A stretch of DNA of 64,000 nt from Microcystis wesenbergii NRERC-220 (GTDB taxonomy: Bacteria; Cyanobacteriota; Cyanobacteriia; Cyanobacteriales; Microcystaceae), in assembly GCF_032027425.1 (NCBI RefSeq), contig NZ_JAVSJA010000001.1, forward strand, positions 1,612,001 to 1,676,000. Reading direction: 5' to 3'. Below the pieces are notes generated by a model. It saw nothing but the letters and a program-made list of their open reading frames with translations, searched no databases and was not told where the DNA came from. Of the stretch, positions 18,151 to 22,334 are shown piece after piece (the first letter of the stretch is position 1; each line of letters starts with the position of its first letter). Position numbers and translations under genes: made by a program.

Positions 18151-18305
18151 TGTCGATCGATTACTGAAAATAATAAGGGTTTATCACCGACTAATACACA
18201 TTAACTATCGGAGTTATCAACTGTTAAAATCTGCCAATGTTAGTTATTATTGCTTCATGTATTTTACTATTTATTCTACATAAAATTATTGTCGATATCC
18301 TCAAG

Positions 18306-19802
18306 TTATTGAGGACGTTTAACCCCACCACGACGTTTAACTTGAAACCCATATAGATAAATTTCAGGTATATTAATTCGACCATCGAGGAGACTTTCCA
18401 CCACACCCAATTGTATTAGATATTGCATAATTTCTTCAGGTTCCTTAACAGGAGGTTGTTTTTCAGGACTCCAGTGAGTTGAGCGCACAGCCTCTAAAAA
18501 AGTTTCTTTTAATATAGGAGCTTCTAACCCTTTTAACTTAGTTTTTAGAGATTCTAACCAAGGATATTCTTCCTGTGCTAATTCTTTAATTCTATCCTCT
18601 GAAGTATCCATTAAAGCACTCTGGAGATCAGAGGGTTGTAGAAGGTATAGCTCGGTCAGTTGTTCAAAACTTTCAAAATGTTCTAATCTTTTGGCTGCCG
18701 CTTTGTCGAATAATTTTAGAAAAGAGCGAGGAGCAATTCTACCCCCAGCATCCTGAAGATGATTAGGTATCCATCGGTAGGTAATGCCTTTTTTAGGACT
18801 AGCTCCCATATATTTACCGATCATTATTTCGATTAATTCTTGAAATAATTGTTCATCACTTCTAACATTCCATCCTAGTTGGGTTGAGCTTTCATAAATT
18901 AAATTAGGGATAATCTGTAAATAGTCTCTCATTTCTTGAGCCGAATTAGCTAACCGTTTAATCCAGAGTTGATAGAGCCAAGAAGGTCGCCATTCTAGCC
19001 GATGGGATTGTAATTTAGAAGCATCAGGAAATCCCAAAAATTCCTCTCTAAATAGGTCGGTACGAAGAAATATTTTTGGTCGAATTCTCTCCCAACGACG
19101 AGAGCGATCGAGCCAAAAAGCTAATAATTCTCTAATCGGATTAGCTAGAGCATTATAAGTAGTCAATAACCGATCTAATTCATCATAAGTAATAAATAGC
19201 CAGTGGTCAGAAGTAATTAATCGTTCGTCTAATTTGTCAAGAACATAATTTAGATGTTCAAAATTATCTTTAACTAAAATTCTCCATTCTGATAAAAGCG
19301 ATAACCTATTTTGAAGAATAGTAGTAATATTTGAATCTAATTCTTGACCTATAATGCTGGCAATATCAGATTCTTTTTCCTGTAAAATGACACCTAAAAT
19401 CAATCCTAACCAGAAACTACGCCATTCAAGATTAGTAGCGTTTTGCATTTCTTCTTCTATAATTTCTGGTATCGGAAATCGTTTTTCAGTTTTGAGAGTG
19501 CGACCAAATCCTGCCATCCATCTGGTCTGATTTAAAGGAGCAAGACCTCGAATATTTAAACTATTAACTAAAGCTTCTCGTCCAGAGGGAATGGCTAGTA
19601 AACGAAATAATTCTGTTTTACCCACACCCCGACCACCTTGAATTAATAAAATGCTTGGCTCCAAAGCTTTTCTATAATCAACCACGGGTAAGAAATTTTT
19701 GAGAAATACGTCTTCATCATCACTTTCCTGTTCAGCAGTTGCTTTTCCAGGAGCAACTGCTCCCATTAATTCCAGTAACTTTTTTTTATCGAATTCAGCC
19801 AT
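18306..19802 (-). CDS. P-loop ATPase, third gene of HEPN/KGGVGRTT cassette
   Basis: The 498-residue protein has a Walker A GGRGVGKT (56-63) and an acidic Walker B-like segment WLFITYDELD (201-210). A further region around 225-260 (DRSRRWERIRPKIFLRTDLF) resembles the sensor part of STAND/AAA-like NTPases. The C-terminal 200 residues are helical, without membrane segments, and may sense or bind a partner. I do not recognise a named family. It starts five bases after the stop of the ParA-like ATPase gene, so the two are certainly co-transcribed and probably act together. Composition is similar to neighbours. The cassette resembles biological-conflict modules that pair NTPases with a HEPN effector, but the function is inferred. 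Confidence 0.75.
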   Translation of the reverse strand: MAEFDKKKLLELMGAVAPGKATAEQESDDEDVFLKNFLPVVDYRKALEPSILLIQGGRGVGKTELFRLLAIPSGREALVNSLNIRGLAPLNQTRWMAGFGRTLKTEKRFPIPEIIEEEMQNATNLEWRSFWLGLILGVILQEKESDIASIIGQELDSNITTILQNRLSLLSEWRILVKDNFEHLNYVLDKLDERLITSDHWLFITYDELDRLLTTYNALANPIRELLAFWLDRSRRWERIRPKIFLRTDLFREEFLGFPDASKLQSHRLEWRPSWLYQLWIKRLANSAQEMRDYLQIIPNLIYESSTQLGWNVRSDEQLFQELIEIMIGKYMGASPKKGITYRWIPNHLQDAGGRIAPRSFLKLFDKAAAKRLEHFESFEQLTELYLLQPSDLQSALMDTSEDRIKELAQEEYPWLESLKTKLKGLEAPILKETFLEAVRSTHWSPEKQPPVKEPEEIMQYLIQLGVVESLLDGRINIPEIYLYGFQVKRRGGVKRPQ

Positions 19803-19807
19803 AATTT

Positions 19808-21184
19808 TTACCGATTGTTTATAATCACATCACGTCCAAATAATTGACAAAGCTTTTCAGCAATAGTTTGATAAGGAGAATCGGTCATAACTTTTACGAG
19901 ATTTGCTAATCTCTCTTTTTCTTCTGGAGTATCGTGCCGTGAGTCACGAGTAAAGAGGGCAATATCTCCCCGCAGACTATTATCGTAGGGGACAACTATC
20001 GGGAAAAATGGTGCATCAGTATCATTAGAGTTAGGGACATCTTCAGATTCAGTATAATAGTTTTCTTGGAAAATTGTATAGGCTCTTTGTCGAAAATTTC
20101 GTAACTCTCTTTCTCGGCCAACTGTTCCTAAAGATGGAGCGAGAGCATGAACTAAAATTAATGGTAAAGGATCCTCAGGGTTAGATAGGGCTAAATGTTG
20201 GATAACTTGGGTTAATCCTGCCCAACTTTGTCGAGATTCCGTACCAAAAATAACCACTGCATGGGAAAAATAAGTAATAGCTAAACCACCAATATCATGA
20301 AAACCTGCTCTTGCATCCATGAGAATAAAATCCAGTGGTCTGCTTAACCTTTCTATTTCTTCTAGCATTTGTTTTAAAATGCCTTGTAGTTGACCATTGA
20401 CAAGATTTTGAAAGTCTAAACGAGCCAATTTTTCTAAATAATCTTGATCCACATTTCCTGCTGGTAGCAATTTTAAGATTTCACCTTCATCTCCTAACAA
20501 ATTTGAGTCATTAATATCTTTTAAACTCAGTTTCCATTTGTCTTTTTGAACTTTCTTTTCTAGCAAATAGTCCATGACACCAGAATTATCGGCAAAATCC
20601 TCAGAAAAAATTGTGGCCAGACCGGGAGCTTCTAAATCAAGATCAACTATAGCGACTCGATGACCATTCCGCGCTAAAGTTAAGGCAGTAGCGGCAATAG
20701 TAGTGGTGCGACCAACTCCTCCTTTGAAGGAAAAAAAGGAGACAATAGCTGGTTTATATCCTTTTTCAACTTTTTCAAAATCCCAAGGCAGTTGCTGCCC
20801 AATTTTATTCTCTGTCCATGCTTGTTTAGCCAGATGACGTTCTAGAATATACCATTTCAAGCTTGGCGATTCATCGAACCAAGGTGCCTTAACTTTTTCC
20901 TTCATGATAAGATCAATCAGGGCTTTATAAGCATCTCCTTCTCCTTTTTGCCACCAAATATCATGGCCATAGTAATCCTCAAGTTTTTCAGACAGGAGTG
21001 TAGATAGATGATTTTCTTCGTTTGATTCTATCTTGTTTGTCCCTGTTAACCCTAGAAATAAGCGAATTTTTCCCTCAACATCACGAATAATAATCACGGA
21101 TTCTAGTTTGGCTACAAGAGAACCAAGACTGGAATCCTGAAAGCAGTCCCTTACCCTAGCAAAAGTTTCACTAAAACTAATCAT
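19808..21184 (-). CDS. ParA/MinD-like ATPase with KGGVGRTT motif
   Basis: The 458 residues have an uncharacterised N-terminal domain (1-140, with an alpha/beta segment IIIRDVEGKIRLFLGL). This is fused to a deviant-Walker-A SIMIBI ATPase: FKGGVGRTT (153-161, with the signature lysine K154), switch I region VDLDLEAPGLA (180-190), and Walker B-like FILMDARAG (286-294). ParA/MinD proteins dimerise on ATP and position partners; in this subfamily, with R in place of K before TT, the role is unknown to me. Seven bases separate it from the upstream HEPN-like gene and five from the downstream P-loop gene: one operon. The N-terminal domain deserves a profile search. Confidence 0.8.
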   Translation of the reverse strand: MISFSETFARVRDCFQDSSLGSLVAKLESVIIIRDVEGKIRLFLGLTGTNKIESNEENHLSTLLSEKLEDYYGHDIWWQKGEGDAYKALIDLIMKEKVKAPWFDESPSLKWYILERHLAKQAWTENKIGQQLPWDFEKVEKGYKPAIVSFFSFKGGVGRTTTIAATALTLARNGHRVAIVDLDLEAPGLATIFSEDFADNSGVMDYLLEKKVQKDKWKLSLKDINDSNLLGDEGEILKLLPAGNVDQDYLEKLARLDFQNLVNGQLQGILKQMLEEIERLSRPLDFILMDARAGFHDIGGLAITYFSHAVVIFGTESRQSWAGLTQVIQHLALSNPEDPLPLILVHALAPSLGTVGRERELRNFRQRAYTIFQENYYTESEDVPNSNDTDAPFFPIVVPYDNSLRGDIALFTRDSRHDTPEEKERLANLVKVMTDSPYQTIAEKLCQLFGRDVIINNR

Positions 21185-21191
21185 CAGAATC

Positions 21192-21623
21192 TTAAATATC
21201 CTTACTAGAAATATAACCGTTTAGCACTAATCTGAGAATAATATCTCGATAAATTTCTTCAGCATATTCAACGGCCGAGTTAGCCTGATCTTCAGTCCAA
21301 TATCCAGATTGATAATATCTTCTTTCTGGGTGATTTTGCCCTAGAACAGTTCCCCGGATGCGAGAAACTGGTAACTGTTGCTCTAAAATAGGATAGAGAA
21401 TTCCTAATCTTTCCCTCGCTTTACCTTCTAATTCCTCGAGATCATGTCCGAATTTTTTAGCGGCTTTTTGATCATTTTTAAAATACTGTTCTACTAAAAA
21501 CTTAAAAGCGCATTCTACTACATAACCAGCTAGGTAAATGGCATTGTCCCAACGTTTTTTAGACAGCAAAATTTTGGCATCTTGCAAATGTCGTCCCGCT
21601 GCACTAGCAAATAACTCGGTCAT
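21192..21623 (-). CDS. HEPN-domain-like protein, first gene of the cassette
   Basis: This 143-residue all-helical protein has the hallmarks of a HEPN domain: an N-terminal helix AAGRHLQDAKILLSKKRWD, a second helix AIYLAGYVVECAFKFLVE, then FGHDLEEL, and a last helical pair after RRYYQSGYW. HEPN proteins include RNases of toxin-antitoxin and defence systems and also non-catalytic scaffolds. The canonical R-X4-6-H catalytic motif of HEPN RNases is not obvious, so catalytic activity is uncertain. It is the promoter-proximal gene; the 711-base gap upstream is shared with divergent chlH. Confidence 0.7.
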   Translation of the reverse strand: MTELFASAAGRHLQDAKILLSKKRWDNAIYLAGYVVECAFKFLVEQYFKNDQKAAKKFGHDLEELEGKARERLGILYPILEQQLPVSRIRGTVLGQNHPERRYYQSGYWTEDQANSAVEYAEEIYRDIILRLVLNGYISSKDI

Positions 21624-22334
21624 AGATGTATCGAATCAAATAAAAACTTTTTAGCCATAAACAAATTCTACCACCATAACGAAACTCTAAGAACTTTACT
21701 TCATTTTTGATTTTTTAACCTAAACTTGCCAAATTTTCTGAAACTATTGCCTGATTTCCTCACTATAATTAAGCTGTTGACTATCTAAATTACTCCTTAA
21801 GACTGCACCAGAGTGCCAGAGTTGCCAGTTCGAGCATTTGTACTAAAATTTCCCCTACTCAGTTTAAATCCAGTACAGCTTACCGGCTACTGAATCCTAA
21901 CCCTAACAACAATTTTTGATTTTTACCAGAGGTCTAGGACAAGGACAAAAAGCTCATCTTGATTGAGTTATAGCACTTGCAGATGTCTATGAGATGATCT
22001 CGAATCCTAACCCTGATCATGTTTGAACAGGGACATCTCGTCTGAGGTGCTGATTAATAACACTTTTGTAATTAAAAGTCAATAGATTAAATATTAATTT
22101 TTGTAAAGAAAAGCCTGAGTAGTTACTCAAAAAGCTCTTTACCATCTGTTACAAAATATGGCAAGATATTTATCGAATTGTGTCAAAACCCAGAGTAAAT
22201 ACTCACTTGGGTGACATTTTCTGATACAAAACAGAAACATATATATCCAAATACCTTAAACAAAGGGCGATCGTCATCAGATGACGAAAATCACTTCATA
22301 CCAGACTCAGCAATCATAAGGAGAACCATCATAT
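21624..22334. other. Divergent promoter region between HEPN cassette and chlH
   Basis: No supported gene in these 711 bases. It must contain the promoters of the leftward HEPN cassette and of rightward chlH. The segment 21889-21945 is an inverted copy of one end of MITE-like element D. An AAGGAG ribosome site at 22318-22323 precedes the chlH ATG. The rest is AT-rich without a motif I can name. Confidence 0.5.
21889..21945. repeat. Solo end of MITE-like element D
   Basis: Reversed, this matches about 50 bases of the left end at 10502-10560 (ACCTCT-GTAAAAATCAAAA followed by TTGTTGTTAGGGTTAGGA), with few differences. The partner end is not evident, so it is a remnant or a differently bounded copy. 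Confidence 0.6.

Follow-up and report, generated by a model that had tools for sequence, protein, structure and literature searches.

The 64,000-nucleotide window analysed here, positions 1,612,001 to 1,676,000 of contig NZ_JAVSJA010000001.1 from the cyanobacterium Microcystis wesenbergii NRERC-220, carries a compact cassette of three genes on its minus strand, transcribed in the order A, B, C. Gene A (21192-21623) encodes a HEPN protein of 143 amino acids, gene B (19808-21184) a MinD/ParA-like KGGVGR ATPase of 458 residues with an added N-terminal domain, and gene C (18306-19802) a 498-residue P-loop ATPase of the Sll1717 family. The list of open reading frames (ORFs) gives intergenic gaps of 7 and 5 bases, in agreement with an earlier sequence-only reading of this DNA that had singled out the trio at these positions. 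A gene for a 1336-residue protein lies upstream of A on the opposite strand, and the contig that carries the trio measures 4.68 Mb.

Family models place all three proteins. Gene A matches the Pfam HEPN model PF05168, its sole HEPN match in Pfam, at 32 bits against a gathering score of 22, which supports the HEPN family for a protein previously called HEPN-like. Gene B matches the NCBIfam model AAA_KGGVGR (NF047398) at 8.7e-55 from residue 145 onward; about 140 residues precede this domain, and the protein is, as the earlier reading had it, a ParA/MinD-type ATPase with the motif KGGVGRTT and an extra N-terminal domain. Gene C, foreseen as the second P-loop ATPase, matches ATPase_Sll1717 (NF047389) at 4.1e-28. 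The PDB matches of gene B are mainly ATPases of the ParA/MinD/ArsA class, over the P-loop region. For genes A and C, profile and single-sequence searches of the PDB returned designed TPR-like repeats, myosins and further weak matches, with no useful relative.

The three proteins are also modelled in PADLOC-DB 2.0.0 (2023), where gene A matches PDC-M28A (4.9e-13, residues 1-54 only), gene B PDC-M28B (5.9e-64) and gene C PDC-M28C (6.2e-76). Judged by model E values and by adjacency in the order A-B-C, the window trio belongs to PDC-M28, a candidate defence system. The same models fit a trio of Thiodictyon, embedded in a BREX type 2 (BREX-2) operon, at 3.4e-40, 2.8e-143 and 3.3e-165. The trio had been proposed as an undescribed system, a description that does not hold in the strict sense because the library already models all three proteins; since the kind is catalogued, the window locus is a new member of it. 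What sets the catalogue entry apart is that the library holds models alone, without a description. PDCs are presented in PMC12988326 as candidate systems from 'guilt by embedding' and are termed there unvalidated or unpublished.

The trio is conserved as a unit. When one genome per species is scanned, at least 37 loci are found, of which 30 encode most of B and seven its ATPase domain only. The 30 B loci among the matches listed come from cyanobacteria (26), Myxococcota (three) and Planctomycetota (one). Among these matches blastp places A and C on either side of B, in the same order, at 29 of the 30 loci, and a HEPN spotted by eye at L091 completes the set; with the same order around B in 30/30 loci, the tight packing of A, B and C is not chance. 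The irregularities are few: C is split between two frames in L073 and L074, as is B in L088; L074 and L079 have a short A, and L089 runs off a contig edge. The suspicion that the genes might also occur apart holds for one domain and fails for the trio, as the KGGVGR domain is found alone elsewhere while full-length B never lacks A and C in the 30 listed loci. In the seven ATPase-only loci (L093-L099) blastp finds neither A nor C. There the KGGVGR ATPase domain opens other proteins, which points to a wider KGGVGR family; six of these proteins were scanned, and TPR repeats occur in five.

The arrangement extends to plasmids and to other phyla. A plasmid survey by tblastn led to 12 regions that were examined. 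In every region a small gene precedes B and matches a profile made from 45 HEPNs, at 2.9e-6 or better. B is followed by C in 11 regions, counting L141, where the two are fused; the twelfth sits at the end of its record. Among 398 genomes of Pseudomonadota, the phylum of the Thiosymbion genome that holds L098 (G419), 17 genomes matched with 18 loci. Each of the 18 has C next to B or joined to it in one protein, C being split between two frames in L175, and 17 have A ahead of B. A search of E. coli genomes with the DNA of an Enterobacter trio gave no match. Across 22 cyanobacterial loci the distances of the three proteins are correlated (r 0.93 for A-B, 0.89 for A-C and 0.93 for B-C), at levels matched by 0 of 2000 permutations, and shared host ancestry also contributes to them. 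These comparisons show A, B and C to be one evolutionary unit, and the proposal of a conserved three-gene cassette stands.

The two ATPases keep distinct sets of motifs. The P-loop of B (residues 154-159, 20708-20725, minus strand) follows KGGxGR[TS] in all 62 B proteins, so that the signature lysine is kept and the Walker A lysine is replaced by arginine. The canonical KGGxGK[TS] of ParA-type proteins does not occur in gene B, which speaks against an assignment to the ParA partition ATPases. Gene C has a Walker A motif (GGRGVGKT, residues 56-63, 19614-19637, minus strand) and a Walker B motif (DELD, residues 207-210, 19173-19184, minus strand). In the 53 aligned C proteins of 54, K62, T or S at position 63 and D207 are each present in 53, and D210 and R247 each in 52. 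The N-terminal domain of B (residues 1-143, 20756-21184, minus strand), with its conserved RDVEGKIRLFL stretch, matches those of nine plasmid B proteins from Pseudomonadota and Streptomyces (hhalign probability 96.9, E 1.4e-10). No relation is detectable by hhalign between the N-terminal domains of split and fused forms of B. A domain common to split B across phyla and not to fused B would suit a sensor.

The fused form is a protein of about 900 residues whose first half matches B and whose second half matches C. A gene for 130-158 residues precedes it in 16 of the 17 loci listed, with a 77-residue piece in L053, and the three of these upstream HEPNs that were scanned match PDC-M28A (1.5e-9, 3.9e-8 and 1e-4). 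Among 386 cyanobacterial genomes the fused protein is matched in 32 (E 1e-60 or better) and full-length split B in nine, one of them broken (E 1e-40 or better). The C half is kept in 29 of the 32, shortened by a stop in G213, and the three genomes that lack it are all Microcystis. At L070 the split and fused forms lie 2.2 kb apart. The fusion is the strongest hint in the sequences that B and C act as one machine, and because the two are often fused, they are proposed to form one switch driven by nucleoside triphosphate (NTP).

The HEPN protein raises the question of its active site. The earlier reading had remarked that it lacks R-X4-6-H and had left a different catalytic site or a scaffold as the alternatives; a pattern search likewise finds no such motif in the window protein, and the canonical HEPN ribonuclease (RNase) was rejected as a model for A. 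An alignment of 45 HEPNs, 28 beside split B and 17 beside fused-type B, leaves out the truncated L053, L074 and L079 as well as L014-L016, L057 and L059. D15, E37, C38, K41, H60 and R102 are invariant in all 45, and Y103 is present in 44. When 13 HEPNs are added (11 from plasmid loci with split B, that of the fused Nostoc plasmid locus and that of L091), E37, K41 and R102 are kept in 58 of 58, C38 and Y103 in 57 and D15 in 56. The histidine column of this enlarged set falls below the 85% listing threshold, and a pattern check finds a histidine between E-x3-K and RY in all 13 added proteins. A pattern test finds the site in 16 of 17 A frames from Pseudomonadota, the remaining one (L176) stopping before RY.

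This combination of residues resembles an alternative HEPN active site proposed for AbiV and AF0298 (PMC3710099, section 6). That site has lost the histidine of the usual motif, retains the basic residue, and has a second conserved histidine N-terminally together with Ex3[KR]. The window HEPN agrees with every point through E-x3-K, H60 and R102, although its match to the AbiV profile is weak (E 0.074, 13.4 bits against a cut-off of 27). E37 (21513-21515), K41 (21501-21503), H60 (21444-21446) and R102 (21318-21320), all on the minus strand, are thus likely to mark a candidate alternative active site, and of the two alternatives a different site is favoured over a scaffold. With such a site gene A would be expected to cut RNA. 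If the site works, it bears directly on the RNase status of HEPNs that lack R-X4-6-H.

An immune role is suggested by the company that the trio keeps in relatives. In Streptomyces sp. NBC_01334 it lies between pglW and pglX, followed by a 3.9-kb gene, pglZ, brxD and a helicase gene. On Thiodictyon plasmid pTs417 it lies between pglX, annotated as two pieces, and the gene preceding pglZ, and on Sphaerotilus plasmid pSna507 between pglX and a DUF6079 gene that precedes pglZ. All three records carry annotated pglW, pglX, pglZ and brxD. Three of the 12 plasmid regions examined have the trio inside a BREX-2 operon. It is a guest there and not a core part of BREX; the Microcystis trio is not seen in BREX-2. 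The catalogue may have found PDC-M28 through this embedding. An integrase gene lies directly upstream in five other plasmid regions, and the fused copy on the Nostoc plasmid adjoins hsdR. On Enterobacter conjugative plasmids (L130, L134) the trio adjoins a gene for a tyrosine recombinase, and L130 also has a TIR-domain gene close by.

Gene C itself gains domains in some relatives. Pseudomonadota loci L165, L166 and L167 have an extended C of 1328-1790 residues, and in all three, the long C proteins scanned, a calcineurin-like phosphoesterase and a NACHT domain (4e-11 to 6e-12) are fused to C; L170, outside the scan, is of similar length. In Okeania sp. SIO3B5 (L083, 11374-13356) C continues into TPR-like repeats, with some undetermined bases in the sequence.

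A further exchange is seen at a sister locus in Microcystis. Genome G007 has this locus intact, with fused B-C. In the window's own genome the DNA follows G007 to the end of B and resumes after a replaced stretch, in which 1.5 kb with the C half is swapped for 1.9 kb; the proteins encoded there match PD-T4-2_A (2.1e-158) and PD-T4-2_B (6.2e-95). These homologues occupy the position of the C half (L041, 7468-9408; contig C1 of the same genome at about 2.21 Mb), with HEPN and B open upstream. Genomes G001, G004 and G009 have the same next gene after B as this locus. PD-T4-2 was tested against phage T4 through deletion in its native strain, according to PMC9519451.

The distribution of the trio within Microcystis is patchy. 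It is found at this site in four of 12 genomes (G000, G418, G008 and G006), and the other eight have no trio match beyond a remnant. G007 and G009 match the window up to 18269 and again from 21891, with 267-268 unmatched bases in between against 3.6 kb in the window; this places the trio-bearing segment at 18270-21890, limits approximate. In G005, which is without the trio, 94 bases of gene B survive next to the same neighbour gene (L040, 9740-9832), a trace of trio loss. Natural alleles with and without the trio are thus available at one site in a bloom-forming cyanobacterium.

Where the trio is present, its amino-acid change is raised. The ratio of nonsynonymous to synonymous change per site (pN/pS) for the trio as a whole is 0.82, 0.88 and 0.82 in comparisons of the window with L063, L064 and L036, against 0.133, 0.085 and 0.094 for the neighbour genes together (nine, seven and five genes). 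Gene C alone stands at 0.30 against L036, and the highest single neighbour at 0.42. Synonymous change per site is lower in the trio (0.026, 0.037 and 0.027) than in the neighbours (0.092, 0.116 and 0.091). Fisher tests on rounded counts give 5e-12, 4e-24 and 8e-15, for sites and pairs that are not independent. Every trio gene is unbroken in the four carriers compared. A more distant pair, L069 and L071, has ratios of 0.14 (A), 0.26 (B) and 0.24 (C). At the sister locus, ten pairs for each gene give high and scattered values, 0.41-3.72 for A and 0.26-1.16 for B, and the signal is therefore not special to complete trios. Recent exchange between strains together with selection for protein change fits this pattern.

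The BREX-2 embedding, the NACHT fusions and PD-T4-2 at the sister locus bear out the conflict-system character attributed to the trio, and with good confidence we regard it as a virus-defence unit. For its complete mechanism, an abortive-infection module in which a HEPN RNase is switched by NTP-driven B and C, the balance is about even. Gene A would be an RNase using E37, K41, H60 and R102 as its alternative active site, and B, MinD-like with the P-loop lysine replaced by arginine, would form a single NTP-driven switch with the P-loop ATPase C. In a resting cell the B-C switch would keep A idle. An invader would be sensed through C or through the N-terminal domain of B, upon which NTP binding or hydrolysis would rearrange the complex and free A to cut RNA, halting growth before phage maturation. 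From the comparisons above we infer that A acts as an RNase, that an invader is sensed, that the events run in this order and that the trio defends this strain.

Several observations weigh against this interpretation. Gene A is without the canonical motif and may be inactive, and the high pN/pS could come from relaxed constraint. The trio has no match in phage records or viral contigs, and the 18 Pseudomonadota loci have no BREX-like neighbour among the blastp matches listed. Near cyanobacterial trios, defence families are not clearly commoner than in random stretches: 200 neighbour ORFs, left after deduplication of 237 that lie no more than 6 kb from the trio at 29 of the 30 loci (all but L064), matched 258 and 72 PADLOC families at 1e-10, and 150 ORFs from random 12-kb stretches matched 138, in a tally that counts families, not proteins, and that large families inflate. 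The neighbour set includes one fused PDC-M28-like pair (L070), and one of the 18 random stretches (L119) is all N and yielded nothing. The anticipated enrichment near defence genes is thus not seen around the cyanobacterial loci; embedding in BREX-2 is seen on three plasmids of other bacteria. Finally, no paper on the trio was found in the open PubMed Central (PMC) literature under PDC-M28, KGGVGR or sll1717. The HEPN site, fused B-C, the NACHT fusions, the PD-T4-2 exchange and the Microcystis population pattern are all absent from the open PMC literature found under the system names.

The same genes could instead be a toxin-antitoxin system, with A as an RNase toxin, B (with or without C) as its antitoxin and defence as a by-product. 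PMC3710099 predicts such a role for a HEPN and ParA/Soj gene pair of the MAE_18760 type, which likewise joins a small HEPN gene to a SIMIBI ATPase gene. That HEPN probably belongs to another family and keeps Rx4-6H, whereas window A is PF05168-like without the motif, and the window trio adds a second ATPase. The sister locus speaks for this alternative, as A and B are both open in four Microcystis genomes that have no C there, and the two can therefore persist alone. An intact A nevertheless accompanies a B in two frames in Calothrix NIES-4105 (L088), a C in two frames in Hormoscilla (L073) and a B interrupted at contig ends in G014, with an assembly fault possible in each case. A broken B is not expected if B is the sole antitoxin of a strict toxin, and the toxin-antitoxin explanation is on balance unlikely. 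The MNT-HEPN type was considered separately and rejected, as no minimal nucleotidyltransferase gene adjoins A, which has B downstream and the opposite-strand 1336-residue gene upstream.

Equally doubtful is a non-catalytic A that binds nucleotides or RNA, with A-B as sensor and C or a fused partner as effector. Such binding is allowed in PMC3710099 for sacsin-type HEPNs without the motif, and the missing RX4-6H of gene A is in keeping with it. So is the third position, which varies among C alone, C extended by TPR-like repeats or by phosphoesterase and NACHT, and PD-T4-2, while A and B stay. Against it, the invariance of E37, K41, H60 and R102 across phyla goes beyond the needs of a scaffold, and Pfam, at E values up to 1, reveals neither a nuclease domain nor any other kind of effector in the window C. 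A partition or envelope-related housekeeping operon, to which the ParA/MinD class of B and neighbours named only by the earlier reading (chlH and envelope genes) could point, is very improbable for a trio that lies on a 4.68-Mb contig, is missing from eight of the 12 Microcystis genomes (two of these were compared at the site and retain both flanks), has the P-loop lysine replaced in 62 of 62 B proteins, and is found inside BREX-2.

The defence reading of the trio also permits a broader, tentative suggestion. HEPN and the KGGVGR ATPase may form a reusable immune core, in which an ATP-driven trigger coupled to varied sensors would fire an alternative-site HEPN and the third slot would be exchangeable; the states seen in that slot are C alone, C extended by phosphoesterase and NACHT or by TPR-like repeats, and the foreign system PD-T4-2. 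The analysis makes an uncharacterised catalogue entry testable, with candidate catalytic residues named, an embedding in BREX-2, and a fused form that perhaps eases biochemistry.

A scan for promoters and terminators at the trio gave a signal no greater than in shuffled sequences. Between the trio and the next gene lie two short repeats (21770-21882 and 21881-21936), present in many copies across the Microcystis genomes searched and perhaps constituting a small mobile repeat.

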